In this document: piece after piece, positions 47,794 through 63,073 of the stretch
Layout of the letters: each line of letters begins with the position of its first letter
How positions within the stretch are numbered: the stretch's first letter is position 1
Assembly (NCBI RefSeq): GCF_024169315.1
Contig: NZ_JALJWR010000001.1
Location: forward strand, 1,199,501-1,263,500
DNA: 64,000 nucleotides
Direction of reading: 5' to 3'
DNA from: Pseudomonas migulae
Lineage (GTDB): Bacteria; Pseudomonadota; Gammaproteobacteria; Pseudomonadales; Pseudomonadaceae
The notes under the pieces: generated by a model
The model's database searches: none
Told to the model about the DNA's origin: nothing
Seen by the model: the letters and a program-made list of their open reading frames with translations, nothing else
Program-made: the position numbers and the translations under genes

Positions 47794-48810
47794 TCAGTTC
47801 GGGTCGAGCAAGCCACCGCTCCAGTTGCGTGACGTGCGGCTGCCAGTGAATTTCGCCACCACCATGCCTTGGGAAACCAGGCGATCGCGATAGCGCGTGA
47901 CCATGCGCCCCGCTTGTTCCGCGTGCAGCACCACTTCGGAGGACGGATCGCCGGGACGCCCGAGAATGCGCGCAAAGCGCTGGCCTTCCTCGACGAAATC
48001 GCCAAGCTCTTTTTCAAAGATCAACACGCCTGGCTGCGGCGCTAGAAAGGTCTCCATTTGCCCCATCTCCTTGACCTCTACCGGCCACTCACCGACCGCC
48101 AACGGCTCATCGATCACCCCGCAGCTGCACAGCCAGACATAAAGCCCCTCGGCATCCTGCTCGGCGAACCGATCGCTGACGTCGCCCTGCCCGCGCAGCT
48201 CCAGGGTCGCGGCCATGTGCCGGTCGGTGATGCCGTTGCGCAGCCAGGGGGCAATGATGGTTTCCTCGAAGGAGCCGTCGCCGCCGTCATCCCAGATGAT
48301 CGCCACGTCCATCTTCATCGCCGCCGCCAGTTCGCGGCCCCGCTGCCAGAAGCTGCGATGAACGTAAAGATAGGGCAACGCTTCGTCATCGGTGTGCAGA
48401 TCGAGCATCACGTCCGCCGTGGCGGCCAGTCGCACCAGGCTTTTTTGCCATTCCTGGACATTGGTTGAAGGCTGGGCCATCGCTGCCGACTGATCGAAGC
48501 CGCGATTGAAGTTATGGCCGGTGGCGTCGTGAAAGCGTCCGAGAATCCGCCCCTGGCGAAATTGCCCGATACCCAGCGGATTCGCTTGGGGAACCACGGT
48601 CACATAGCCCTTGAGGCGGCCTTCGGATTCTGCGACCTGCAGCCGCTGCATCAGCAAGTGCAGCACCAGCATCCCGGCGATTTCATCGGCATGCACCCCC
48701 GCCTGCAAATGCACGGTCGGCCCGCTGCCGTCGCCTTCGAAACGCCAGGCACCCACCCGCACCGCGTCGCCGTTATTGTTGCGAACACTGAACGAAATAT
48801 CCTGCGCCAT
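47794..48810 (-). CDS. Succinylglutamate desuccinylase/aspartoacylase-family hydrolase
   Basis: A 338-residue zinc hydrolase of the M14 AstE/AspA group. Zinc ligands are in LQAGVHADEIAG (His, Glu) and MLDLHTDDEAL (His); the C-terminal part adds a barrel-sandwich-like domain (FLAPQPGVLIFEKELGDFVEEGQRFARI). It should remove an acyl group from an amino-acid-like substrate. It is divergent from a TetR gene across a TTGAACG-N2-CGTTCAA palindrome that recurs at the arginine-catabolic promoters, so its substrate may be an N-acyl guanidino or basic amino acid. Inferred, not proven. Confidence 0.85.
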   Translation of the reverse strand: MAQDISFSVRNNNGDAVRVGAWRFEGDGSGPTVHLQAGVHADEIAGMLVLHLLMQRLQVAESEGRLKGYVTVVPQANPLGIGQFRQGRILGRFHDATGHNFNRGFDQSAAMAQPSTNVQEWQKSLVRLAATADVMLDLHTDDEALPYLYVHRSFWQRGRELAAAMKMDVAIIWDDGGDGSFEETIIAPWLRNGITDRHMAATLELRGQGDVSDRFAEQDAEGLYVWLCSCGVIDEPLAVGEWPVEVKEMGQMETFLAPQPGVLIFEKELGDFVEEGQRFARILGRPGDPSSEVVLHAEQAGRMVTRYRDRLVSQGMVVAKFTGSRTSRNWSGGLLDPN

Positions 48811-48919: not shown

Positions 48920-49555
48920 GTGACCACCGACTCTCCAAAATACCGCCGCGTTGAACCTGACGAACGTCGCGAACTGCTGGTGGAAGCCACCCTGCGTTGC
49001 CTGGCCCGCGACGGCCACGCCGGGATTTCCGTGCGTCGTATCGCCACCGAGGCCGGGGTGTCCGTCGGCCTGCTCAATCACCATTTCGGCAGCATCGATG
49101 CGCTGATCGCCGACACCTACCAGAAGCTCGCCAGCGAATTGACCGCTGCCCTGCTCCAGGAAATCCAGCAGGTCGGTACACCCGCGGAAAAAATGGACAC
49201 CTTCCTCGTCGGCTCGTTTTCGCCCCGGGTCATGGACCCGAAACTGCTCGGCGTCTGGGTGGTGTTCTGGAGCCTGATTCGTCATTCGGACTACGTCAGC
49301 CAGTCCCACGAAAAGAGCTACCGCGACTACCTCGATCTGCTGCGCACGCTGCTCGATGACCTGGCCGTCAGCGAAGGCTTCGTGATCCACGACACGCGCC
49401 TGGCCGCCATTGGTTTATCGGCGATGCTCGACGGACTCTGGCTCGAGTGGTGCCTCAACCCCGAGACTTTCAGCCCCGCCAACGGCCTGCACATCAGTCG
49501 TTGCTGGGTAAAGGGGCTGCGTCACGGAGCATTCAGCACCGACGACGTCCTGTGA
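48920..49555 (+). CDS. TetR-family regulator (BetI-like), copy A
   Basis: A 211-residue TetR protein. The DNA-binding part is DGHAGISVRRIATEAGVSVGLLNHHFGSIDALI; the C-terminal core ends LAAIGLSAMLDGLWLEWCLNPETFSPANGLHI, characteristic of the BetI group. GTG start with AAGGA ahead. Its paralogue at 57578 shares the same C-terminal block. It lies beside the perfect TTGAACG-N2-CGTTCAA site and is the leading candidate for repressor of the aru-type regulon. Its 3' end overlaps the convergent EamA gene by 141 bases. Confidence 0.93.
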   Translation: MTTDSPKYRRVEPDERRELLVEATLRCLARDGHAGISVRRIATEAGVSVGLLNHHFGSIDALIADTYQKLASELTAALLQEIQQVGTPAEKMDTFLVGSFSPRVMDPKLLGVWVVFWSLIRHSDYVSQSHEKSYRDYLDLLRTLLDDLAVSEGFVIHDTRLAAIGLSAMLDGLWLEWCLNPETFSPANGLHISRCWVKGLRHGAFSTDDVL

Positions 49556-50422
49556 CGGATGCCGACCGAAGATCATGGCCAGGGTGCCGCTGACCGCAAT
49601 CAGACCCGCACCGATCATCAGTGACACATCCATCAACGTGCCCCAGATCAGGCTCGACAGCAGGAACGCCCAGATCAGCCCGGTGTACTCGAACGGCGCC
49701 AGCACGGTCGCGGTGGCGCGCTGGAAACTGGCGAACAGCAGGAACTGACCAATGCCGCCCACCAGCCCGGCGCCGAGCATGCCCAGCCAGGTCGGGGTCG
49801 GCGCCGGGGTGTGAGTCCAGGGCAACGCGACCGTCATGCAGATGACAAACACCACGTTGGTGATCAGCATCTGCTCCAGCACCGACGTCTGGTCATCGAC
49901 CTGCCGCAACTGGATGTAGGTGAACGCCCAGCACATCGCCGCCAGCAACGTCAGCACGATCGGCAACGGGTCGGCCATGTTGCTCGGGCGACAGGCGATG
50001 ATCACGCCGATAAAGCCGAGCACCAGGCTGAACCATTGCCAGCCGCTGGCCCGTTCCTTGAGGATCACCGCCGCCAGCACCGTGACCATGATCGGCGCGG
50101 AAAAATACAGCGTGGTCATTTCCGCAAGCGTCAGGTCCCGGGCCGCCGTGTAATACAGCAGCCACGCCACAATCGACAGCAAACCGCGCACCACCAGCAA
50201 GCGTCGGCTCGGTGAACGCCAGGCGCGCTGCACCAGTCGTAAACGCCCGGCGAGCAAGCAAGCGACGACCACGACAAGGCTGCGCCAGAACAGAATGCTG
50301 ACTACCGAATAATCGGCAACCAGCCATTTGATGCCGGCGTCCTGCAACGCCAGGAACGCGTAGCCCAACGTGCACAGGCCAATGCCCTGCAACGAGCGGT
50401 CGACGATCCGTGGCGCATTCAT
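49415..50422 (-). CDS. EamA-family (DMT) exporter
   Basis: Ten-helix drug/metabolite transporter of 335 residues with two EamA repeats (about 10-140 and 155-285). A 47-residue polar tail after the last helix is encoded opposite the end of the TetR gene. It starts one base after the second permease stop and thus belongs to the ABC importer operon, so it may release an excess or toxic amino acid or metabolite formed from the imported compound. Substrate not known. Confidence 0.9.
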   Translation of the reverse strand: MNAPRIVDRSLQGIGLCTLGYAFLALQDAGIKWLVADYSVVSILFWRSLVVVVACLLAGRLRLVQRAWRSPSRRLLVVRGLLSIVAWLLYYTAARDLTLAEMTTLYFSAPIMVTVLAAVILKERASGWQWFSLVLGFIGVIIACRPSNMADPLPIVLTLLAAMCWAFTYIQLRQVDDQTSVLEQMLITNVVFVICMTVALPWTHTPAPTPTWLGMLGAGLVGGIGQFLLFASFQRATATVLAPFEYTGLIWAFLLSSLIWGTLMDVSLMIGAGLIAVSGTLAMIFGRHPSQDVVGAECSVTQPLYPATTDVQAVGGAESLGVEAPLEPESVEHRR

Positions 50423-51130
50423 TTACACCGACCTGCGCACGGGTGTCCCGCGCCGTTCGACGAAGGCAAACAGCGCCTCGATCAGGAAGGTCAGGCAAAC
50501 GTAGACACCGGCCACCAACAGCAGCGGCTCGTACACTTGCAGGGTCTGCGCCCGGACCACGTTGGCGGCGCCCAGCAGATCGATCACCGCGATGGTCGAC
50601 GCCAGCGCCGTGGACTTCAGCAACATCACGGTCTCCCCGGCCAGTGTCGGCAACAGCAAGCGCATGGCGCGGGGCAACCGCACGCGCAACAGGGACTGGC
50701 GCGAGGTCATGCCAAACGCCGACGCCGCTTCTATTTCACCTTTGGGCACCGCCAGCAGGCCGCCGCGAATCACTTCGCCGACGTAGGCGCCCATCGACAC
50801 CACCAGGGCAAACACGATGTACCAGTAACCGTCACGCAAATAGGGCCAGAGGAAGCTGCCGCGAATCAGCGGGAACTGCGCAAACAGACTGCCGAGCCCG
50901 TAATAGAAGATGTAGATCTGGATCAGCAACGGTGTGCCGCGAAACACGCTGGTGTAGAACAGGCTGGCCCGGGCGATCACTTTGTATTTCGAGATCCGCG
51001 CCAGCGCCACCAGGATGGCCAGCAGGAAACCGAACACACTGGACAGCAACAGCAGGGTAATGGTCGTTTGCAGGCCTCGGCCCAACAGCGCCGCGTATTC
51101 AACTATCCACGCTGGAATCATTTCAATCAC
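50423..51130 (-). CDS. Polar amino acid ABC permease (HisM/ArtM-like)
   Basis: Inner-membrane subunit of 235 residues with about five helices and the EAA motif GEIEAASAFGMTSRQSLLRVRLP. It forms the channel with the preceding permease. The start overlaps the upstream permease stop by ATGA. Together with the SBP and the fused ATPase it completes a HAAT-family importer for basic or guanidino amino acids. Confidence 0.93.
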   Translation of the reverse strand: MIEMIPAWIVEYAALLGRGLQTTITLLLLSSVFGFLLAILVALARISKYKVIARASLFYTSVFRGTPLLIQIYIFYYGLGSLFAQFPLIRGSFLWPYLRDGYWYIVFALVVSMGAYVGEVIRGGLLAVPKGEIEAASAFGMTSRQSLLRVRLPRAMRLLLPTLAGETVMLLKSTALASTIAVIDLLGAANVVRAQTLQVYEPLLLVAGVYVCLTFLIEALFAFVERRGTPVRRSV

Positions 51131-51840
51131 TCGACCAATGGCATCCAGCGACGAATGCGTCGCTCAAGCCGTCCCGACAGGTAGTTGGACACCAACGTCA
51201 CCGCGTAATACATCGCCGCGGCCGTGAGGTAGAACAACAAGTAATGACGTGTCGAACCCGCGCCTTGCTTGGCGGTGTACAACAGCTCGTTGGTGCCGAC
51301 CACGCTGATCAGCGCACTGTCCTTGATCAGGTTGATCCACAGGTTGGCCATCCCTGCCATCGCATACGGCGCCATGATCGGCAGCGTGACGCGCCGGAAC
51401 AGCCCGAACCCGCTCAGGCCGAACGCCCTCGCCGCTTCGATCTGGCCGAACGGAATCGCCTGGATCGCCGCGCGGAAAATTTCCGAGGCGTAGGCGCCTT
51501 GCACCAGCCCCAGCACCACGATCGCCGCCAGCGGGCCGCTGACATTGACCACGCCGTAACCCAGTTCGGTCATCAGCGAGTTGATCAGCATGGAGCCGAC
51601 GTAGTACAGCAACAGGATCAGCAACAATTCCGGAACGGCGCGGAACAAGGTGGTGTAACCGCGCATCAGCGTGGCGATCGGCCGGGGCGCGTTCAGTTTG
51701 AGACAGGCGACGACCAGCCCGATGGCCAGCCCGAGTGCAAAGGCGCCAGCGGATATCTGCAGGGTCATCCACAGCCCTTTGAGCAGCGCACCGCCCCACC
51801 CCGTTTCGCTGAAATTGATCAATTCGAACATGGCTGGCAT
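51127..51840 (-). CDS. Polar amino acid ABC permease (HisQ/ArtQ-like)
   Basis: A 237-residue inner-membrane permease with the EAA motif GQIEAARAFGLSGFGLFRRVTLP. I chose the ATG at 51840, with GGAG 6 bases ahead, over one three codons later. A REPIN separates it from the binding-protein gene upstream. It pairs with the following permease by an ATGA overlap and needs the ATPase part of the aminotransferase fusion for activity. Confidence 0.92.
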   Translation of the reverse strand: MPAMFELINFSETGWGGALLKGLWMTLQISAGAFALGLAIGLVVACLKLNAPRPIATLMRGYTTLFRAVPELLLILLLYYVGSMLINSLMTELGYGVVNVSGPLAAIVVLGLVQGAYASEIFRAAIQAIPFGQIEAARAFGLSGFGLFRRVTLPIMAPYAMAGMANLWINLIKDSALISVVGTNELLYTAKQGAGSTRHYLLFYLTAAAMYYAVTLVSNYLSGRLERRIRRWMPLVE

Positions 51841-51882
51841 TTCTCTCTCCAGATAGCGCAATCACTGTCTGACGCAATCCCT

Positions 51883-51972
51883 TGTGGGAGCGGGCTTGCT
51901 CGCGAAGGCGGTCTTACATTCAGCAATGATGTCGACTGACACACCGCCTTCGCGAGCAAGCCCGCTCCCACA
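51883..51972. repeat. REPIN with 30-bp perfect arms
   Basis: TGTGGGAGCGGGCTTGCTC... at 51883-51912 and its complement ending at 51972, within the ABC operon between the binding-protein and permease genes. REPINs in this position often tune relative expression of SBP and permease by stabilising the upstream message. Confidence 0.92.
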
Positions 51973-51988
51973 GGGATCTATGTACAGG

Positions 51989-52771
51989 TCAGAACGCCGG
52001 TTTCACGCTGGTGCCGAAATAATGCTGGGAGAGGTCGTCATAGTCCTTGCTGGCCAACAAGGAGGCGATGGCCTTGTCGAGTTTGGCCTTGAGCTCAGTG
52101 TCATCCTTGCGCAGACCAGCACCCACGCCCTTGCCGAAAATCGGGTCATACGGCACTGCGCCGAGGTAAGCCAGGTCCTTGGCATCCGGCGTCTTGACGA
52201 AAGCCGCCATGGCCGTGCCGTCCGCCATCATCAGGTCGATGCGACCGGCAATCAGGTCGGCGTTGGCCGAATCCTGGGTATCGTAATACTTCACGTCGGC
52301 AATTTTTTCGTAGTAGGTCTTGAGATAGCTGGCGCTCACCGTCGAGTTCTGCACGCCGATGGTCTTGCCCTTGAGGTCATCCGGGTACTTTTTCACCGAA
52401 GCGTCTTTCGGCCCGACAATCGCGATCACCGAGTCGTAATACGCCTTGCTGAAAGCGATCTGTTTCTCGCGTTCTTCGGTCACCGACATGGAGGAAAAAA
52501 TCACGTCGATCTTCTTCGCCAGCAGCGACGGAATGATCCCGTCCCACGCCACTTCCTTGATCTCGCACTCCGCTTTCATTTCGCTGCACAACTTGTGAAT
52601 CAGGTCGACTTCGAAACCCTTCCATTCACCATTGGCCTGTTTCTCGGTGTACGGCGGATACGGTTCGGCCGCGACCGCGAACCTGATCGGCTGAGCTTGC
52701 GCCGCGCTCATGCCGGCCAGCATTACGCAGGCCACGCCGGTCAACCAGTTTGCCAAACGTCGATTTCCCAT
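51989..52771 (-). CDS. Amino-acid ABC transporter binding protein (Lys/Arg/ornithine type)
   Basis: Periplasmic receptor of 260 residues with a signal peptide (to about 26, SAAQAQPIRF). The SBP_bac_3 fold shows AAEPYPPYTEKQANGEWKGFEVDL and the second-lobe TIGVQNSTVSASYL motif. The ligand profile in this branch is basic amino acids or opines. It lies 27 bases after the fused aminotransferase/ATPase gene, so uptake receptor and first catabolic enzyme are co-transcribed. Confidence 0.93.
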   Translation of the reverse strand: MGNRRLANWLTGVACVMLAGMSAAQAQPIRFAVAAEPYPPYTEKQANGEWKGFEVDLIHKLCSEMKAECEIKEVAWDGIIPSLLAKKIDVIFSSMSVTEEREKQIAFSKAYYDSVIAIVGPKDASVKKYPDDLKGKTIGVQNSTVSASYLKTYYEKIADVKYYDTQDSANADLIAGRIDLMMADGTAMAAFVKTPDAKDLAYLGAVPYDPIFGKGVGAGLRKDDTELKAKLDKAIASLLASKDYDDLSQHYFGTSVKPAF

Positions 52772-52798: not shown

Positions 52799-54802
52799 TT
52801 AGCGAGTTTGATGAGCGTTGACGAATTGCCGGCAACGTTCACTGCGTGGGTGTACGAACACTTCATCCGGCGAGCCGGTTTCCTCGATCAGCCCTTGATG
52901 CAAATAGGCGACTTTGGACGACACATCGCGTGCGAAAGCCATTTCATGCGTCACCAGGATCATGGTCCGGCCTTCTTCCGCGAGAGAGCGGATCACCCGC
53001 AGCACTTCGCCGACCAGTTCCGGGTCGAGTGCCGAGGTGGGTTCATCGAACAGCATGACTTTGGGCCGCATGGCCAAGGCGCGGGCGATGGCCACCCGTT
53101 GCTGCTGTCCCCCGGAGAGAAACGCCGGGTACTCGTTGCGTTTGGCCGCAAGCCCCACGCGCTCCAGCAAGGCTTCGGCCCGTTCAGTGGCTTCAGCACG
53201 GCTTTCACGCAGGACCTGGGTCGGCGCTTCGATGAGGTTTTCCAGCACCGTGCGATGGGGCCAGAGATTGAAGTTCTGGAACACCATGCCCAGGCTCGAA
53301 CGGATTCGCACCAGTTGCTTGGCGTCGGACACCAGCGGCGCGCCGGGGCGTGAGTGGTTCAGGTGAATGCTTTCGCCATCGACCAGAATGCGCCCCTGGT
53401 CCGGCACTTCGAGCATGTTGATGCAGCGCAGCAAGGTACTTTTGCCCGAGCCGCTGGCGCCGATCAAGGAGATCACATCACCTTCGCGGGCGGTCAGCGA
53501 AACGCCCTTGAGCACCTCGATATTGCCGAACCGTTTGTGCAGCCGTTCGACTTCGATCATGGTCTTGGCCGCGACCGGTTCGGCGGCTGCGCTGCTGGTA
53601 ACACGGGCGATCACCGGCCGCGGCGCTTCGCCTTTGAGCACCAGGACAAAATCGCGAATGCGCTGGCAGGCCTGGGCCAGCCGTTCTTCACCGAGGGTGA
53701 ACGAGAGCCTTACAAAACCTTGCGCCGGCTCACCGAACGCGGCGGCATCCAGCACCGACACGCCCGCCTCGCGCAGCAGGCGCCAGGCGAATTCCAGCGA
53801 GGTCAGTCCGGTTTCGCGAACGTCGATCAGCACGAACATCCCGGCATCGGGATTGAGCACGGAAATGCCCGGGCAACCCGCCAAACCGTTCACCACCAGA
53901 TCGCGGCGATGACGGTAGATTTCACGCATGCCGTGGGTGACTTCGTCATGGGCCAGCACCGCCTTCAGCGCGGCTTCCATGACAAACCCCGGCAAGCCGT
54001 AAAGCATGCTCAGCACCAGGGTTTCGGCGTGGGCTACCAATGCCTGATCGGCGACGATCCAGCCGGTGCGCCAGCCGGTCATGGCATGGGATTTCGACAG
54101 GCTGCCGATCACCACGCAACGTTCCGCCATGCCGGGCAAGGCCGCCAGACTGATGTGTTCGCGCTCGAACGCTAGGCTCTCATAGACCTCGTCCACCACC
54201 ACCCACAGGTCGTGGGCGATGGCGATGTCGGCAATGCCTTGCAGCTCTTCGCGGGTCAGCACGACGCCGGTGGGGTTGTTCGGGTTGGAGAAGAAAATCG
54301 CCCGGGTTTTCGGGGTGATGGCTTTGGCGAGTACCGCCGCATCGAGCCGGAAACCGGCGTCCGCCGAGCAAGGCACGCGCACCAGCGTTGCTCCGGAAGC
54401 CTTGAGTGTCGCTTCGTAGGTCACGTACATCGGGTCGAGGGCGATCACTTCATCGCCGGCAGTGAGCAGGCACATTGAGGTGGCGAACAGGGCGTTCTGT
54501 GCACCAGCGACGATGATCACGTTGGAGGCTTGCAGCTCACGGTCGAACAGCTTGCCGTAGCGGTCGGCGATGGCTTCGCGCAAGGCCTGGCGACCGGAGA
54601 TCTCGGTGTAGTGGGTGTCGCCCTCGCGCAAGGCGTGGATCGCGGCATCGGTGATGAAATCGGGGGTGGGGAAATCCGGGTCGCCGACGCTGAGAATGAT
54701 CACATCCTCGCCCCGGCGCTTGGCTTCAAACGCTGCGTTGTGAATATCCCAGGCGGCAACGCCATCGCCTGCTATCCGCTCAACAAAGGGTGAAAACCGC
54801 AT
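52799..54802 (-). CDS. aruH: Fusion: AruH-like aminotransferase + ABC importer ATPase
   Basis: A single 667-residue frame with two complete enzymes. Residues 1-392 are a fold-type I PLP aminotransferase whose start (MRFSPFVERIAGDGVAAWDIH) and SLSKSHAMTGWRTGW lysine site match P. aeruginosa AruH, arginine:pyruvate transaminase. A linker (393-414, Ala/Val-rich) leads to a full HisP/ArtP-type ATPase (415-667): Walker A GASGSGKST, signature LSGGQQQR, Walker B VMLFDEPTSALD, H-loop VTHEMAFA. The importer has no other ATPase gene here. An internal ATG at 53560 could also start a free ATPase, but its ribosome site is weak. GAGG precedes the start at 54802. Coupling of uptake to transamination at the membrane is the obvious inference. 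Confidence 0.92.
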   Translation of the reverse strand: MRFSPFVERIAGDGVAAWDIHNAAFEAKRRGEDVIILSVGDPDFPTPDFITDAAIHALREGDTHYTEISGRQALREAIADRYGKLFDRELQASNVIIVAGAQNALFATSMCLLTAGDEVIALDPMYVTYEATLKASGATLVRVPCSADAGFRLDAAVLAKAITPKTRAIFFSNPNNPTGVVLTREELQGIADIAIAHDLWVVVDEVYESLAFEREHISLAALPGMAERCVVIGSLSKSHAMTGWRTGWIVADQALVAHAETLVLSMLYGLPGFVMEAALKAVLAHDEVTHGMREIYRHRRDLVVNGLAGCPGISVLNPDAGMFVLIDVRETGLTSLEFAWRLLREAGVSVLDAAAFGEPAQGFVRLSFTLGEERLAQACQRIRDFVLVLKGEAPRPVIARVTSSAAAEPVAAKTMIEVERLHKRFGNIEVLKGVSLTAREGDVISLIGASGSGKSTLLRCINMLEVPDQGRILVDGESIHLNHSRPGAPLVSDAKQLVRIRSSLGMVFQNFNLWPHRTVLENLIEAPTQVLRESRAEATERAEALLERVGLAAKRNEYPAFLSGGQQQRVAIARALAMRPKVMLFDEPTSALDPELVGEVLRVIRSLAEEGRTMILVTHEMAFARDVSSKVAYLHQGLIEETGSPDEVFVHPRSERCRQFVNAHQTR

Positions 54803-54877
54803 GCCAGTGCCTCGTTCGAATGGAAGAAACGCAAGCCCGCAACCAACCGGGGGTGGTGGAGCCAACATAGTCGAAGC

Positions 54878-54891
54878 TGAACAGTCGTTCA
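54878..54891. promoter_or_regulatory. TGAAC-N4-GTTCA operator (regulon site 2)
   Basis: TGAAC (54878-54882) and GTTCA (54887-54891), 76 bases before the fusion gene start and beyond the AruI stop. Matches the core of the 48864 site, so the same TetR protein probably controls this promoter. Confidence 0.65.
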
Positions 54892-54979
54892 ATAGAAAAG
54901 TCGTCCGGGTTCGCGTTCAGCGTAAACAGGTCGTTTTCACGACAGTCGAGCCGTTTTTCAGTACGGGTTTTCTCGTGTC

Positions 54980-56614
54980 TTATTGGCAAGCACAGGCGTG
55001 CTTGAGCTCGATCAGGGTGACGCCAGGATGGGCAAAACCACGGCGCAAATCGCGCTCCAGTTGATCGAGGCTTTGCGGCTCGTGCACGGTGCAGCCGAAC
55101 GCTTTGGCCAGCAGTACAAAATCCGGATTGCGCGGCAGCACGCCCACCGGTTCGATATCGAGGCTGAGCATGTCGTCGCGAATCTGCCCCAATGCGTCGT
55201 TGTTCCAGAGCAGCACCACCAGCGGGCTGTCCAGTTCTTCGACGGCGGTGGCCAGTTCCTGCGCGGTGTAGAGAAAGCCGCCGTCACCCACCAGCACCAG
55301 GCCGGGCCGTTGCGGTGCGCCGAATTTCCCGCCGATCCCCGCGGGCAAGCCGTAGCCCAACGTGCCGTAGCCGGTGGGATGCAACCAGCTGCGGATATTC
55401 TGGCTGGCGAACGCGTAGTTGCCGGTGTAGGCCAGTTGGGTCATGTCGCTGCTGATGAACGTGTCGGCGGGCATCGCGGCGGTGATGCGGTCCAGGATAC
55501 GTTGATGGATCGTTTGCAATTCACCGTGACCGGTTCGGATCGCGGCTTTCAAACCGGCGACCGCGGCCACGGCTTCAGTCGAATCCCGTGCCTCGGCCGG
55601 CACCCGCGTCAGTAACGCGGCGAGGGTTTGCCGGGCATCGCCGTGCAAGGCGACGGCACACGGATAGAAATCGTTGAACTTGCGCGAATCGATATCGACC
55701 CGGATCACCTCGCCGCTCAGCGGCAGGCGCTCGCGCCAGTAATCGGTGTCGGCCATTTCGGTGCCGACGGCCAGCACCACGTCCGCTTGCGCGATCAAGT
55801 CCCAACCGGGCTCAACGCACAGGCTGGAGCCGGCATTCAACGGCGCGTCCGGTGCCAGCAGACCTTTGCCGGCGACACTGGTGAACAGTGGCGCGGCGAG
55901 GCGTTCGCTCAAGGCTTGCAACTCGGCACCCGCCGCCAATGCCCCGCCGCCGGCAATAATCATCGGACGCTTGGCGTGTTGCAGGCGTCGGGCGGCTTCA
56001 TCCAGTGCTGTGGCTTCCGGCAGACCACGGCCCGGACGGCGCACCACGTCGGCGCTCCAGTCACGGCTGATCGCGCCCGCCAGCACATCCAGCGGCACCG
56101 AAATGTGCACCGGCCTTGGCCGTTCGCTGTCGAACACGGCAAAGGCGCGGGCGACCAGTTCGGGCAAATCGTCGGTGCTCAACGCCACCGCCGAAAACGC
56201 GGTGATGGGGGCGGTGATCGCCCGTTGATCCTGGGTTTCATGCAGGCAACCCCAGCCTTTGCCGAGGCTGGCGGTGTGGTTGACGCTGGAAATCACCAGC
56301 ATCGGAATCGAGTCGGCGTAAGCCTGGCCGATGGCGGTCGCCGCGTTGGTCACGCCGGGGCCGGTAATGATGAAGCACACGCCCGGTTTGCCGCTGACCC
56401 GGGCATAGCCGTCAGCCATGAACCCGGCGCCCTGTTCGTGGCGGGTCAGCACATGCCGGATGCCGCTGCCGGGCAAGCCGCGATACAGCTCGAGGGTGTG
56501 CACGCCGGGAATGCCGAACACGGTGTCGACGCCGTAATTCGCCAGCAATCGCACCAGGGCCTGGCCGCCGGTGAGGGTCGAGGATGGAGGTTGCGGGGTC
56601 GATTGTGAGCTCAT
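54980..56614 (-). CDS. aruI: AruI: 2-ketoarginine (5-guanidino-2-oxopentanoate) decarboxylase
   Basis: A 544-residue thiamine diphosphate enzyme. The N-terminal domain carries the catalytic Glu (LTRHEQGAGFMADGYARVSG) and the C-terminal domain the GDGGF...WNND cofactor motif (GDG to NN spacing 27). Start TLTGGQALVRLLANYGVDTVFGIPGVHTLE is split here across the signature of AruI-type acetolactate-synthase relatives. It converts 2-ketoarginine from AruH to 4-guanidinobutyraldehyde. It lies 177 bases upstream of the AruH fusion gene, on the same strand, with its own operator. Confidence 0.85.
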   Translation of the reverse strand: MSSQSTPQPPSSTLTGGQALVRLLANYGVDTVFGIPGVHTLELYRGLPGSGIRHVLTRHEQGAGFMADGYARVSGKPGVCFIITGPGVTNAATAIGQAYADSIPMLVISSVNHTASLGKGWGCLHETQDQRAITAPITAFSAVALSTDDLPELVARAFAVFDSERPRPVHISVPLDVLAGAISRDWSADVVRRPGRGLPEATALDEAARRLQHAKRPMIIAGGGALAAGAELQALSERLAAPLFTSVAGKGLLAPDAPLNAGSSLCVEPGWDLIAQADVVLAVGTEMADTDYWRERLPLSGEVIRVDIDSRKFNDFYPCAVALHGDARQTLAALLTRVPAEARDSTEAVAAVAGLKAAIRTGHGELQTIHQRILDRITAAMPADTFISSDMTQLAYTGNYAFASQNIRSWLHPTGYGTLGYGLPAGIGGKFGAPQRPGLVLVGDGGFLYTAQELATAVEELDSPLVVLLWNNDALGQIRDDMLSLDIEPVGVLPRNPDFVLLAKAFGCTVHEPQSLDQLERDLRRGFAHPGVTLIELKHACACQ

Positions 56615-58995: not shown

Positions 58996-61083
58996 TCAGG
59001 CCAGGCGGATCAGTGCATCCACCGCCACCGCGCCTTCGGCATTGACCAGCAAAGGGTTCACGTCCAGCTCCAGCAGTCGCTCGGCGTTCTCGCAGGCGTA
59101 ATCCGCCACCGCCCGAATCGCCCGGACCAACGTCGGCATATCCACCGCCGGACCGCCGCGAAAACCGGTGAGCAAGGGCGCACAGCGCAGGCTCAGCAGC
59201 GCCTCGTGAATGGCCTGATCGGTGGTCGGCAACAACAGGCTGCGACTGTCCTTGAGCAGCTCGACCAGAATCCCGCCGGCGCCGATCACCAGCGCCAGAC
59301 CGAAGCCGGTTTCCCGTTTGATCCCCACGATCAGTTCAGCCAGGGGCGGCGACGCCATGCGTTCGAGCAGGACCTGATCGAACGCCAGCCCCGGCGCATG
59401 CCGCGCCAGGTTGCTGCGCATGCTGTCGAGCGCGGCGTTCAACCCTGCCTCGTCTTTCAGGTTGAGGGCGACGCCACCGGCTTCGGTTTTGTGCGGCAGG
59501 TCGGCACTCACGACCTTGAGCACCAGCGGATAACCGAGGCTGCGTGCCTCGTCCAGCGCCTGTTCGGGACGGCACAGGCGAGCTTCGGGCAACGGCAGGC
59601 CGAACGCGCGCAAGGCCTGTTTCGATTGCCATTCATCGAGCAATCGCCCCGATGCCACCGAGACAGCCGGACAGATCGGGGCCAGCGCCGATTCACCGTC
59701 GGCCAACAACGCTTCCCGGCGCGCGCGGTAATGGGCGATGCGTGACCAGGCCGCCAGGCCATCCTCGATCCCTTGCAGCGCCGCCACGCCCCGGGCATGC
59801 AGGCGTTCACGGGCTGTGGCCGGGAGCAGTTCGGGGAACGCCGAGCTCACAAAACCGGTCTTGCCGTGACGCTCCAGCAGGTCGCAATACAGCTCCAGCA
59901 GCAGATCGCACTCTTTGCGCTCACCGGTGAATTCGGCGGGATAGTCGAGCACCAGCAGCGCCGCATCGGCCGGTGTGCTTAGGGCCGTTTCGAGCATCTT
60001 TTCCAGGGCGTCGCGGTCGCCCCAGATGGCCGTGGTGAAATCCAGCGGATTGACCAGATTGGCGTAGCTCGGCAGAACCTGAGCCAGTTCCGCACGCTGG
60101 CTGTCGTCCAGTTTCGGCAAGGTCAGGTGATTGCGTTCGGCGTAGTCGGCGATCAATCCCGCATCGCCACCGGAGCAGGCCAATGCAATCAGGCTTGGCC
60201 CCGCCGGCAAGTTGCCGCAAGCCGCGGCCTTCAGGGTTTCGACAAAACTCACCGGGCCGCTGACGCGAATCACGCCGAGGCGCTCGAACAGACTGTCGTA
60301 CAGCGCATCGGAACCGGCCAGGGAACTGGTGTGACTCAACGCCAGCTCGGCACCGATCTGCGACACACCGGTTTTCAGCGCGATCACCGGAATGCCTTTT
60401 TCCAGCGCCTTGTGCGCGACGCGGGCAAAACCGGGCACGTTCTTCAGCCCTTCGAGGTGCAAGCCGATAGCGGTCACCCGTGGCTCGTCGAGCAGCACGT
60501 CCATCAACTCGGCCACGCCCAGTTGCGCCTGATTGCCCACCGACGCCATGTAGGCCAACGGCAGCGAGCGATCGCTCATGGACAGGTTGTAGGCGAAATT
60601 GCCGCTCTGGGTCAGGATCGCGACGCCCTTCTCCACCACCTTGCCGCCATGGGCCACCGGCCACAACGCGACGCCGTGCAGGTAGTCGAGCAAGCCATAA
60701 CAGTTGGGACCGAGCAGCGCCATGTCGCCGGCGGCGTGCAGCAGCTGTTCCTGCAACGCCAGCCCCTGCTCGCCGGTTTCCGCGAAGCCGGAGGCATAAC
60801 AGATCGCACCGCCCGCGCCTTTGGCGGCCAGTTCGGCGACGCAGTTCAGTGTCAGCTCGCGGTTGGTGGCGATGAAAACGCCGTCCGGGCCACAGGGCAA
60901 ATCGTCAATCGACGCCACGCACGGAACGCCTTCAAGGCTCGCATGTTGCGGATTGACCAGCCACATCTGGCCTTGGAAACCGCCGTCGGCGCAGCGCTTG
61001 AGCGCCCGCGCCATGCTGCGCCCGCCGACGAACGCCAGATGACGCGGCGCGAGCAGACGCTTGAGGTTGTCTCTGATCGACAT
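58996..61083 (-). CDS. NDP-forming acyl-CoA synthetase (acetate-CoA ligase family)
   Basis: A 695-residue fused alpha-beta synthetase. N-terminal CoA-binding domain (FVGGRSMARALKRC), succinyl-CoA-synthetase-like domain with the likely phospho-His in ALSHTSSLAGSDALYD, and a C-terminal ATP-grasp domain (YPLVLKVVSADLPHKTEAGGVALNL). It would activate a carboxylate, in this context possibly 4-guanidinobutyrate or another product of the pathway, to its CoA thioester. The ATG at 61083 has AAGGAG 7 bases ahead. It is third in the enoyl-CoA hydratase / acyl-CoA dehydrogenase operon. Confidence 0.9.
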   Translation of the reverse strand: MSIRDNLKRLLAPRHLAFVGGRSMARALKRCADGGFQGQMWLVNPQHASLEGVPCVASIDDLPCGPDGVFIATNRELTLNCVAELAAKGAGGAICYASGFAETGEQGLALQEQLLHAAGDMALLGPNCYGLLDYLHGVALWPVAHGGKVVEKGVAILTQSGNFAYNLSMSDRSLPLAYMASVGNQAQLGVAELMDVLLDEPRVTAIGLHLEGLKNVPGFARVAHKALEKGIPVIALKTGVSQIGAELALSHTSSLAGSDALYDSLFERLGVIRVSGPVSFVETLKAAACGNLPAGPSLIALACSGGDAGLIADYAERNHLTLPKLDDSQRAELAQVLPSYANLVNPLDFTTAIWGDRDALEKMLETALSTPADAALLVLDYPAEFTGERKECDLLLELYCDLLERHGKTGFVSSAFPELLPATARERLHARGVAALQGIEDGLAAWSRIAHYRARREALLADGESALAPICPAVSVASGRLLDEWQSKQALRAFGLPLPEARLCRPEQALDEARSLGYPLVLKVVSADLPHKTEAGGVALNLKDEAGLNAALDSMRSNLARHAPGLAFDQVLLERMASPPLAELIVGIKRETGFGLALVIGAGGILVELLKDSRSLLLPTTDQAIHEALLSLRCAPLLTGFRGGPAVDMPTLVRAIRAVADYACENAERLLELDVNPLLVNAEGAVAVDALIRLA

Positions 61084-61101
61084 GGGATTCTCCTTGGCCA
61101 A

Positions 61102-62262
61102 TCAGCGCAGCAGTGGCCGCAGCAACTCGCGGGAAATGATGTGGCGCTGGATCTCTGAAGTGCCTTCCCAGATCCGCTCGATCCGTGCGTTGCGCCAGAT
61201 GCGCTCCACCGGGCTTTCGTCCATCAGGCCCATGCCGCCGAAAATCTGCACCGCCTGATCCGCCGCGCGGCCCAGCACTTCACTGGCGAACAGCTTGGCC
61301 ATGCCGGCCTCGCCGTCGGTCATGGTGCCCTGATCCATTTTCCAGGCCGCGTGCAGGGCCAGCAGTTCGGCGGCACGGATTTCGGTGGCCATGTCCGCGA
61401 GTTTGAACGAGATACCCTGATAGGTGCCGATGGCATGGCCGAACTGTTTGCGGTCGGCCGCCCATTGCAGCGACACGTCCAGTGCCCGTTGCGCCTGGCC
61501 GACGCAATTGGCGGCGACCATCACCCGCCCGGCCGTCAGCCAGGCGTTGGCCACGTCCCAGCCCTTGCCGACTTCACCGAGCACTTTGGAGGCTGGAACG
61601 CGGCAGTCGTCGAAGAAGATTTCGCTGGTGTGGTAACCGCGGTTACTGACGCATTTGGGGCCACGGCGAATGGTCATGCCCGGCGTGTCGCGGTCGACCA
61701 GGAAGGACGTCACGGCGTTGCGCTGGCGGCCGTTGTGCTCGTAGGTGTCCGTCACCGCGAACACGATGGCGAAGTCGGCATGGCCGGCGTGGCTGATGAA
61801 ATGCTTGCTGCCGTTGAGCACGAAATCATCGCCGTCACGCACGGCGCGGGTCTTGATCGCATTGGCGTCGGAACCGGCGCCCGGCTCGGTAAGGGCGAAA
61901 CAATCGACCTTTTCCCCGCGCACACACGGCAGCAGGTAGTCCTCGATCTGCGCACCCGTGCAAGCCATGAGAATTTTCGACGGACGCGCGACGAACACGT
62001 GCAGCGCCCAGGACACCTTGGACAGCTCACGCTCGATCAACGCCTGTGACAGGTAATCGAGCCCTCCGCCGCCGACTTCCTCGGGCATGTTGAACGCATA
62101 AAAACCGGCGGCAATCGCCTTTGCGCGAATCTGCGCAGCCAGTTCCGGCGGCACGGCATCGGCGCGGTCGACGGCGTCTTCGTGGGGCAGCAGTTCTCTT
62201 TCGACGAAGCTGCGCACGGACTCAACCAGCATGTCCTGCTCTTGGGTCAGTTGAAAATTCAT
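61102..62262 (-). CDS. Acyl-CoA dehydrogenase
   Basis: FAD-dependent dehydrogenase of 386 residues, the family's usual length. Motifs: FALTEPGAGSDANAIKTRA, the FAD loop FGHAIGTYQGISFKLADM, and the catalytic Glu in IERIWEGTSEIQRHII. It oxidises an acyl-CoA to the 2,3-enoyl-CoA and passes electrons to ETF. I prefer the ATG at 62262 (AGGTG ahead), where homology begins (MNFQLTQEQDML). It is between the hydratase and synthetase genes, all minus strand with short gaps. Confidence 0.94.
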   Translation of the reverse strand: MNFQLTQEQDMLVESVRSFVERELLPHEDAVDRADAVPPELAAQIRAKAIAAGFYAFNMPEEVGGGGLDYLSQALIERELSKVSWALHVFVARPSKILMACTGAQIEDYLLPCVRGEKVDCFALTEPGAGSDANAIKTRAVRDGDDFVLNGSKHFISHAGHADFAIVFAVTDTYEHNGRQRNAVTSFLVDRDTPGMTIRRGPKCVSNRGYHTSEIFFDDCRVPASKVLGEVGKGWDVANAWLTAGRVMVAANCVGQAQRALDVSLQWAADRKQFGHAIGTYQGISFKLADMATEIRAAELLALHAAWKMDQGTMTDGEAGMAKLFASEVLGRAADQAVQIFGGMGLMDESPVERIWRNARIERIWEGTSEIQRHIISRELLRPLLR

Positions 62263-62281
62263 GGTTGCACCTGCGGTTCGA

Positions 62282-63073
62282 TTACTGGCCGATGAAATGA
62301 GGCGTGCGTTTTTCCACGGCGGCCCTGAGGGCTTCAGTGCCGTCCTGGCTGCGACCACACAGCAAGCCCGCTGCCTGTTCGGCCGCGAGTTGCTCGGCCA
62401 GGCTGCGCCGGGCGCCGTCGCGCAGCAGCACCTTGGTCTGGGCGAAGGCGAATGTCGGGCCGCTGGCCAGCCGCGTCGCCAGCTCGGTGGTTTGCGTGAT
62501 CAACGCTTCATCGGCGCACACTTCGCTCACCAAGCCGGTGGCCAACGCGCGGTCGGCACTCCAGATTTCGTCGAGGAACAGCAGGCGTTTGCTCTGCTCG
62601 AGGCCGATCAACCGTGGCAGGTGCCAACTGGCGCCGGCGTCCGGCGAGTAAGCCATGCTGGTGTAACCGGCCTTGAACCGTGCCGATTGCGCGGCGAGTC
62701 GGAAGTCGCAGCACAACGTCAGGTCCATCCCGGCGCCTACAGCAATGCCGTTGATGGCAGCAATGGTGGGTTTGCTGAAACCGTGCAGGCGATTCATCAA
62801 CTGGTGGGCGGTTTCGGTCCAGCCGTAGGTTTCAAGAATGCCGCGGCGCTCGGCGTCGGCCCATTCGGCCACGTCCGCGCCCGCGCAGAAACCTTTGCCG
62901 TTGCCGGTCAGCACCAGCACCCGTATCGCCGGGTCGGCTTCATGGCCGTCGAGCAGATCGATCAAGGCCTTGAGGGTGGGAATGTCCAGCGCGTTGCGTT
63001 GCTCGGTGCGGTTGAGGGTGATCCAGGCGATGCCGTTTTCAACCCGGCTGAGCAGTGACGGTTGCGAAGTCAT
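62282..63073 (-). CDS. Enoyl-CoA hydratase/isomerase family protein
   Basis: A 263-residue crotonase. The oxyanion-hole motifs are GNGKGFCAGADVAEW and AINGIAVGAGMDL; the active-site segment YSPDAGASWHLPRLIG has Asp where many hydratases have Glu, as in PaaG-type isomerases. It is the first gene of the CoA operon, with GAGGACC before the ATG at 63073. A TetR-type site lies 55 bases upstream and the 20-bp shared element 174 bases upstream, so this operon is tied to aruI control. Confidence 0.93.
   Translation of the reverse strand: MTSQPSLLSRVENGIAWITLNRTEQRNALDIPTLKALIDLLDGHEADPAIRVLVLTGNGKGFCAGADVAEWADAERRGILETYGWTETAHQLMNRLHGFSKPTIAAINGIAVGAGMDLTLCCDFRLAAQSARFKAGYTSMAYSPDAGASWHLPRLIGLEQSKRLLFLDEIWSADRALATGLVSEVCADEALITQTTELATRLASGPTFAFAQTKVLLRDGARRSLAEQLAAEQAAGLLCGRSQDGTEALRAAVEKRTPHFIGQ

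Follow-up and report, generated by a model that had tools for sequence, protein, structure and literature searches.

Within a 64,000 nucleotide stretch of the Pseudomonas migulae genome (contig NZ_JALJWR010000001.1; this whole stretch is referred to below as the window), a single gene joins an arginine-type aminotransferase to the ATPase of an ATP-binding cassette (ABC) importer. This enzyme-ATPase fusion is real and conserved, and it is not peculiar to the genome in which it was noticed: it is genuine and old, and it is found in many soil pseudomonads. It looks to be tied to arginine breakdown, and the protein is probably bifunctional. The fusion itself, its spread, the retention of its reading frame and its association with the decarboxylase AruI were established by sequence comparison, and the one frame, with its signs of constraint, would be compatible with a physical joining of transporter and enzyme. 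The gene and its parts are as follows.

52799..54802, minus strand: aruH-like aminotransferase/polar amino acid ABC ATPase fusion gene, 667 residues
53645..54802, minus strand: aminotransferase part, residues 1-386, a class I/II pyridoxal 5'-phosphate (PLP) enzyme with an S-x-S-K motif (Pfam)
53561..53644, minus strand: linker, residues 387-414, Ala/Pro-rich and fast evolving
52799..53560, minus strand: ABC ATPase part, residues 415-667 including the stop codon (ABC_tran)

The frame is free of stops from 54802 to 52799 on the minus strand, its length being counted from the ATG; an alternative TTG upstream, at 54892, would give a protein of 697 residues. An initial annotation, made from the DNA letters alone, had described one frame holding an aminotransferase and an ABC ATPase, and the Pfam searches bore this out, with Aminotran_1_2 matching residues 33-382 (233.1 bits, cut-off 19.7) and ABC_tran matching residues 431-590 (126.4 bits, cut-off 25). 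The top NCBIfam models were HisP/TcyN/EhuA-type ATPases for residues ~413-662 and several PLP enzymes for the N-terminal part. None of the best 25 NCBIfam models listed attains its curated cut-off; the HisP equivalog model gives 348.3 bits, below its curated cut-off of 466. For fine-scale tests 79 fused reading frames were in hand, 70 of them distinct. It is apparent that both halves retain their catalytic motifs. The catalytic-lysine S-x-S-K motif of a class I/II PLP aminotransferase is present in all 70 distinct genes, and so are the Walker A, signature (LSGGQQQR), Walker B (DEPTSALDPE) and H-loop (VTHEM) patterns of a HisP/ArtP-type importer ATPase. A stricter pattern for the enzyme half, RLSFTL, is matched by just 38/70.

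Genomes were searched in a manner that reads through stops and counts them. A full-length fusion was found in 45 of 249 genomes of the genus, with no internal stops, and the family sample, with 248 genomes, has the fusion in 38 (36 full-length matches, all free of stops, with G304 and G385 added by reading frames). In total, 81 different genomes from three genera carry it. The samples from the order (341 genomes), class (369) and phylum (398) yielded no stop-free full-length matches other than the window's own and those of three family genomes; in two order-level relatives the matches were interrupted, by two stops and by one stop. Named carriers include P. reinekei, P. brassicacearum and P. 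aylmerensis, as well as Psychromonas sp. B3M02, at 59%. A protein search from the latter returned, among the matches listed, 19 more fused clusters at 66-91%, and these include Vibrio hippocampi and Marinomonas agarivorans, which with Psychromonas are referred to here as the marine cluster. The initial annotation had proposed a database search for the two-domain architecture, and had named, as one outcome that would refute the fusion, a sequencing indel that takes away a stop between the domains; the search gave three genera and the marine cluster, and the occurrence of the fusion in 81 genomes rules out sequencing or assembly error as its source. Some members are named in public annotation as 'polar amino acid transport system ATP-binding protein/arginine:pyruvate transaminase', so pipelines already know the architecture. 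No description of the fusion was found among the matches listed in the openly licensed PubMed Central (PMC) literature, as far as titles and abstract openings go.

The evidence favours translation of the fusion as one polypeptide. The alternative, that the ATPase is mostly made from an internal start of its own and that the open linker frame is incidental, is regarded as very improbable, and separate translation is unlikely to be the main route to the ATPase. The junction had been placed at 53560 by the initial annotation, and an ATG at 53560-53558 does indeed occupy the position at which unfused ATPases begin; a clear ribosome-binding site is missing there. At this position the 70 fused genes have ATG (52), GTG (eight) or a non-start codon (ten, one of which, L054, has an ATG one codon earlier). 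This retention of start codons speaks for an internal start, as does the moderate pairing with the anti-Shine-Dalgarno sequence, reaching -5 kcal/mol, of the best start codon near the ATPase start in 17/68 fused genes, a proportion to be compared with 45/69 among unfused ATPases. On the other side, the pairing at the start of the fused gene has a median of -5.9 kcal/mol (58/70 at -5 or lower), whereas at the ATPase start position it is -2.4 (11/70 at -5 or lower), which is similar to the baseline provided by other internal methionine codons (136/996). The linker's two other frames contain stops in 49/70 and 48/70 genes, so the open linker frame is not trivial, with the proviso that these 70 genes were picked for having both domains in one frame.

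Two genomes in which the enzyme half has been damaged provide additional data. The ATPase of G467 shares 97% identity with that of the window, and the enzyme half of this gene is cut, in a protein alignment, to 220 aligned codons with four gaps; its ratio of nonsynonymous to synonymous substitution rates (dN/dS) is 0.28-0.43, as against 0.06-0.12 in four ordinary pairs, and the frame is open into the ATPase. In G225 the enzyme half is gone except for ~10 aligned codons, and here too the frame behind the enzyme's start has been kept. That the decayed halves remain in frame argues against an ATPase made from its own start. These two enzyme halves aside, purifying selection was seen on both halves in the pairs compared, the dN/dS of the enzyme part being 0.06-0.12 (four hand-picked pairs). 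That of the linker is 0.16-0.68 (four pairs). Linker length ranges from 22 to 50 residues across fused genes. In 12/70 fused genes the linker-coding stretch contains an element (TAGGAGC or CAGGAGC with GCTCC) that resembles a repetitive extragenic palindromic (REP) sequence; these are L053, L055, L058, L060-L063, L065, L066, L075, L159 and L160. Eleven of these 12 belong to one related genus (g9), and exact copies of one such REP number 229 forward and 229 reverse in G271. The RNA hairpin z-score is -5.7 for the L061 linker and -0.6 for that of the window.

Further comparisons concern AruI. Eight loci from other genomes carry AruI and a different AruH that has 51-54% identity to the fused domain, with an acyl-CoA-ligase-like gene and two others adjacent; a ninth locus (L196, in G121) matches this gene set except that the AruH is missing. 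These were taken as the ordinary aru locus, presumably the counterpart of the aru locus of P. aeruginosa. Orthology of the fused enzyme with this AruI-linked AruH was considered and rejected. The two fall in separate clades (support 100/100), and this, together with the 51-54% identity, makes the fused domain a paralog of the AruI-linked AruH, the reference here being the loci from other genomes. The 'AruH-like' label of the initial annotation is correct as to an arginine-type aminotransferase and needs amending as to descent. A third AruH-like gene (L002, G000:C1:933451-934629) occurs in the window's genome and in many relatives; its identity is 72% with the AruI-linked AruH and 50% with the fused domain, and no AruI or importer genes were seen in its flanks.

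For the genomic survey a close AruI was defined as 77% identity or more, and an AruI-linked AruH as 80% or more to the L191 protein. A close AruI is present in all 45 fused genomes of the genus (81-100%) and in 9/9 fused genomes tested from two other genera, and in none of the eight genomes that have the enzyme alone, with no ATPase half. The genus sample includes 204 unfused genomes, of which 172 were tested for AruI. Among unfused genomes with an aminotransferase match (E value 1e-125), AruI occurs in 21/37 (19/25 and 2/12, the two being G061 and G225); among the 167 without such a match, a set that leaves out unfused genomes with an ordinary AruH, it occurs in 2/135 tested (2/80 and 0/55).

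The AruI-linked AruH is present in 21 of the 45 fused genomes and absent from 24. An AruI without its own AruH is therefore seen solely alongside the fusion (24/45, compared with 0/23 unfused genomes with AruI; AruH lies within 1.5 kb of AruI in 19/19 of the latter, and in the remaining four it was found at 80-88%). In 10/45 fused genomes, the window among them, no more than 2 kb separates AruI from the fusion, and nine of these ten lack the AruI-linked AruH, the exception being G107. It is likewise absent from 15/15 members of a subgroup whose fusions are 81-84% identical to that of the window. The neighbouring genes known from the ordinary aru locus run into the fused operon in the window as well as in L201 and L202; in L200, AruI is situated 1.6 kb from the fusion without those neighbours. 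G225 and G467, in which the enzyme half of the fusion is gone or decayed, both retain the AruI-linked AruH. This pattern points to the arginine transaminase pathway, whose decarboxylase is present in the window with a score above the curated cut-off, and it lends indirect support, from gene content, to arginine as the substrate.

The genes that surround the fusion in the window are listed below. Counts refer to a long-flank set of 20 loci, drawn from the 79 fused ones available.

54980..56614, minus strand: AruI-like 5-guanidino-2-oxopentanoate decarboxylase (NCBIfam PRK07524, 778.6 bits, cut-off 500)
51989..52771, minus strand: periplasmic binding protein, family 3 (SBP_bac_3; Pfam)
51127..51861, minus strand: HisQ/ArtQ-like permease (BPD_transp_1; Pfam, NCBIfam)
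50423..51130, minus strand: HisM/ArtM-like permease (BPD_transp_1; Pfam, NCBIfam)
49415..50422, minus strand: EamA-family transporter of the same gene cluster (Pfam), in 11/20 long-flank loci
48920..49555, plus strand: TetR-family regulator conserved with the fused cluster (Pfam), in 20/20
47794..48810, minus strand: succinylglutamate desuccinylase/aspartoacylase-like (M14-like) hydrolase (Pfam), in 18/20
58996..61101, minus strand: acyl-CoA-ligase-like gene (Pfam)
61102-62358 and 62282-63073, minus strand: two more frames beyond the acyl-CoA-ligase-like gene (reading frames only)

The decarboxylase gene lies upstream of the fusion, and the importer genes and the EamA gene downstream, all on the same strand. 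The operon of the fusion also encodes two BPD_transp_1 permeases and a binding protein of family 3, the constituents of a polar amino acid importer, as the initial annotation had stated, and relatives of all three were found in 20/20 long-flank loci. Its further statement that no separate ATPase gene is present also held: there is none in the window's operon, and no second ATPase with at least 50% identity to the window's was found in the fetched stretches of the 20 long-flank loci. Many further HisP-like ATPases are encoded elsewhere in the same genome. Among solved structures, the binding protein is closest to those of lysine/arginine/ornithine-binding proteins (160 bits); proteins that bind histidine (151 bits), nopaline (145 bits) and octopine (134 bits) come next. 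Relatives of the three genes between 58996 and 63073 adjoin aruI and the AruI-linked aruH in other genomes. No promoter-like site was found at 54700-55100.

Relatives in which the parts are not joined provide natural comparisons. In G610, from another family of the same order, these genes lie in tandem and share a frame without being joined: the enzyme gene ends in a stop, 42 bases that include a Shine-Dalgarno sequence follow, and the ATPase gene comes next, with the genes for the permeases, EamA, the binding protein and TetR after it. Divergent genes for an M20 amidohydrolase and a CocE/NonD-type hydrolase stand beside this cluster (L177:10465-13802), and perhaps hint at a conjugated substrate. 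In the trees of both domains the Pseudomonas fusions group with a pair consisting of the fused Psychromonas and the unfused G610. Either there were two fusions, one in Pseudomonadaceae and one in the Psychromonas cluster, or there was a single fusion with later splitting in G610; domain trees and counts of this kind do not separate gain from loss. In eight further genomes the enzyme is 76-79% identical and no such ATPase or permeases lie within ~8 kb, for which the simplest reading is that the transporter was lost and the enzyme kept.

Unfused clusters with an ATPase, a binding protein, permeases, an AruH-like enzyme and an AruI-like gene nearby were found in other Pseudomonas, Burkholderia, Chromobacterium, Craterilacuibacter and Limnohabitans. 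They resemble the fused operon in having the same kinds of parts at one locus, and differ in that the genes are separate and in a different order. G749 was considered as a second case of a pre-fusion state and was rejected, since its enzyme belongs to the clade of the AruI-linked AruH and its ATPase does not group with the fused ones. Its locus (L178:7983-11557), where AruI, an enzyme of that AruH clade, an ATPase, a binding protein and permeases are encoded in tandem, is a separate unfused arrangement.

Compared with known systems, the fusion resembles the HisP/ArtP-type ATPases in its catalytic motifs and in sharing an operon with HisQ/HisM-like permeases and a binding protein of family 3, and differs from them in the entire catabolic enzyme at its N-terminus and in its score under the curated HisP cut-off. 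It shares with AruH, the AruI-linked arginine:pyruvate transaminase, membership of the same aminotransferase group and, in the window's lineage, a position next to AruI, but its enzyme belongs to a separate clade and is joined to an ATPase. In Mycoplasma penetrans, as far as the accessible part of the source goes, an aminotransferase is appended to methionyl-tRNA synthetase (PMC7694997) and is likewise joined to a handler of its amino acid; it supplies a synthetase, however, and not a transporter.

A parallel came from seven loci (L105, L106, L110, L113, L117, L120 and L135) that were fetched by ATPase similarity and have N-terminal extensions of 402-459 residues. Pfam assigned DUF2817 together with ABC_tran in 7/7, and each has downstream genes for a binding protein and for one or more permeases. 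Their hosts are Mesorhizobium (three), Ensifer, Agrobacterium, Rhizobium and Paracoccus; among the matches listed in a protein search, 118 of 120 clusters have both DUF2817 and the ATPase, the named ones being mostly rhizobial. These fusions are like that of the window in their N-terminal enzyme-like domain, ATPase subfamily and downstream importer genes, and unlike it in the domain that is attached and in their ATPase, which, for the six of the seven loci included in the ATPase tree, belongs to a different clade from the AruH-fused ATPases. The separate clades indicate that enzyme-like domains were joined to this subfamily more than once. No match was found in the openly licensed PMC literature for DUF2817 together with an ABC transporter.

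Taken jointly, the data make it likely that the protein is a bifunctional enzyme-ATPase serving arginine uptake, transamination and subsequent decarboxylation by AruI. The N-terminal half would be a PLP aminotransferase of the AruH group and the C-terminal half the ATPase of the importer encoded downstream. Since PLP aminotransferases and importer ATPases both belong to dimeric families, the permease pair could carry a 2:2 assembly. The membrane assembly would most likely be a dimer, with two ATPase halves on the HisQ/HisM-like permeases and the aminotransferase dimer hanging beneath them by the flexible 22-50-residue linkers. The binding protein would deliver a basic amino acid, most likely arginine, the attached enzyme would transaminate it, and AruI would then decarboxylate the resulting 2-oxo acid. 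The benefit would more probably lie in a fixed 1:1 supply and nearness than in a sealed channel.

A number of observations weigh against this reading. In the gene tree the eight enzyme-only genomes fall among the fused ones of the genus, and these, with the lineages that have the ATPase without an intact enzyme, indicate that the tether is not indispensable to the transport-coupled metabolon proposed by the initial annotation, in which the incoming amino acid would be transaminated on entry. Only 2/70 fused genes lack any start codon between 25 codons before and five codons after the ATPase start, so some separately made ATPase is possible, and the openness of the linker, being built into the selection of the genes, proves nothing by itself. 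A close AruI also occurs in 23/172 unfused genomes of the genus tested. When relatedness was considered, in the tree of fused and enzyme-only genes, three independent contrasts on supported branches were all concordant, which gives a sign-test p of 0.25. No AruI was seen in the flanks of the Psychromonas locus (L087), nor, at the threshold used, in G610. The AstE/AspA-group hydrolase of the 18 long-flank loci is not needed for free arginine and, to our knowledge, the M14-like hydrolase and EamA both lie outside the arginine transaminase pathway.

The strongest competing explanation, which is credible though it falls somewhat short of an even chance, is that a stop was lost between neighbouring genes and that the fusion provides co-expression only, with 1:1 supply and without mutual influence of the halves. 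The tandem, in-frame, unfused genes of G610 are consistent with this, and so, to the detriment of a working tether, are the persistence of either half without the other in some lineages and the fast-evolving linker of variable length, which contains a REP-like element in 12/70 genes. Against mere co-expression, the fused state has been kept across three genera of Pseudomonadaceae and the marine cluster, and the unfused relatives inside the fused clade have lost the transporter as well (8/8), so that simple splitting is not observed there. A role for the tether would accord with the spread and age of the fusion and with the retained catalytic motifs and apparent constraint of both halves. Nearness with fixed supply and fixed supply alone are given roughly equal weight, and a gating role less. 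The last of these, in which the enzyme half would sense the intracellular substrate or its 2-oxo acid and gate the ATPase, is proposed by analogy. Regulatory domains are known on importer ATPases, such as the C-terminal ones of MetN and ModC, and the enzyme would bind the transported amino acid; the catalytic-lysine motif in 70/70 genes and the purifying selection suggest an enzyme instead, and in G225 and G467 the enzyme half is no longer intact and the ATPase, binding protein and permeases are kept. Such a regulatory domain is thus considered improbable.

The substrate might also be other than arginine, namely lysine, ornithine or an N-acylated basic amino acid from which the M14-like hydrolase would first free the amino acid. 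The frequency of that hydrolase at long-flank loci, the M20 amidohydrolase beside the marine G610 cluster and the rhizobial DUF2817 fusions of the same ATPase subfamily, one with a weak AstE_AspA match, could be accommodated in this way. In the accessible parts of the respective sources, lysine is reported as a further substrate of AruH (PMC12930750), and AspC of S. meliloti, 40% like AruH, is described as promiscuous (PMC7268258). This explanation is nevertheless doubtful, in view of the confinement to fused genomes of AruI without its own AruH and of the position that the fused operon takes, in the window as in L201 and L202, next to AruI with its neighbouring genes.

Transporter-enzyme metabolons have mostly been inferred from loose association. 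The present case would be a covalent pairing, with fused, tandem unfused, enzyme-only and ATPase-only relatives available for comparison. Should the coupling prove real, importer ATPases can have a catabolic enzyme of their own attached to them, and membrane channelling becomes open to direct testing; if it does not, the gene is a clean example of a long-lived fusion retained for supply alone. A bolder proposal, tentative and rather unlikely as a whole, is that arginine would be transaminated at the cytoplasmic mouth of the importer before it mixes with the pool, and that the DUF2817 parallel marks a recurrent class of enzyme-armed importer ATPases. If true, these would constitute a recurrent and hitherto undescribed tie of catabolism to transport.

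Two minor features of the gene cluster were also observed. In the window the 3' ends of the EamA and TetR genes overlap by 141 bases (49415-49555), and an identical 141-base overlap is found in 9/10 fused loci where those two genes overlap. A REPIN-like inverted pair is situated between the genes for the binding protein and the first permease (51862-51990).

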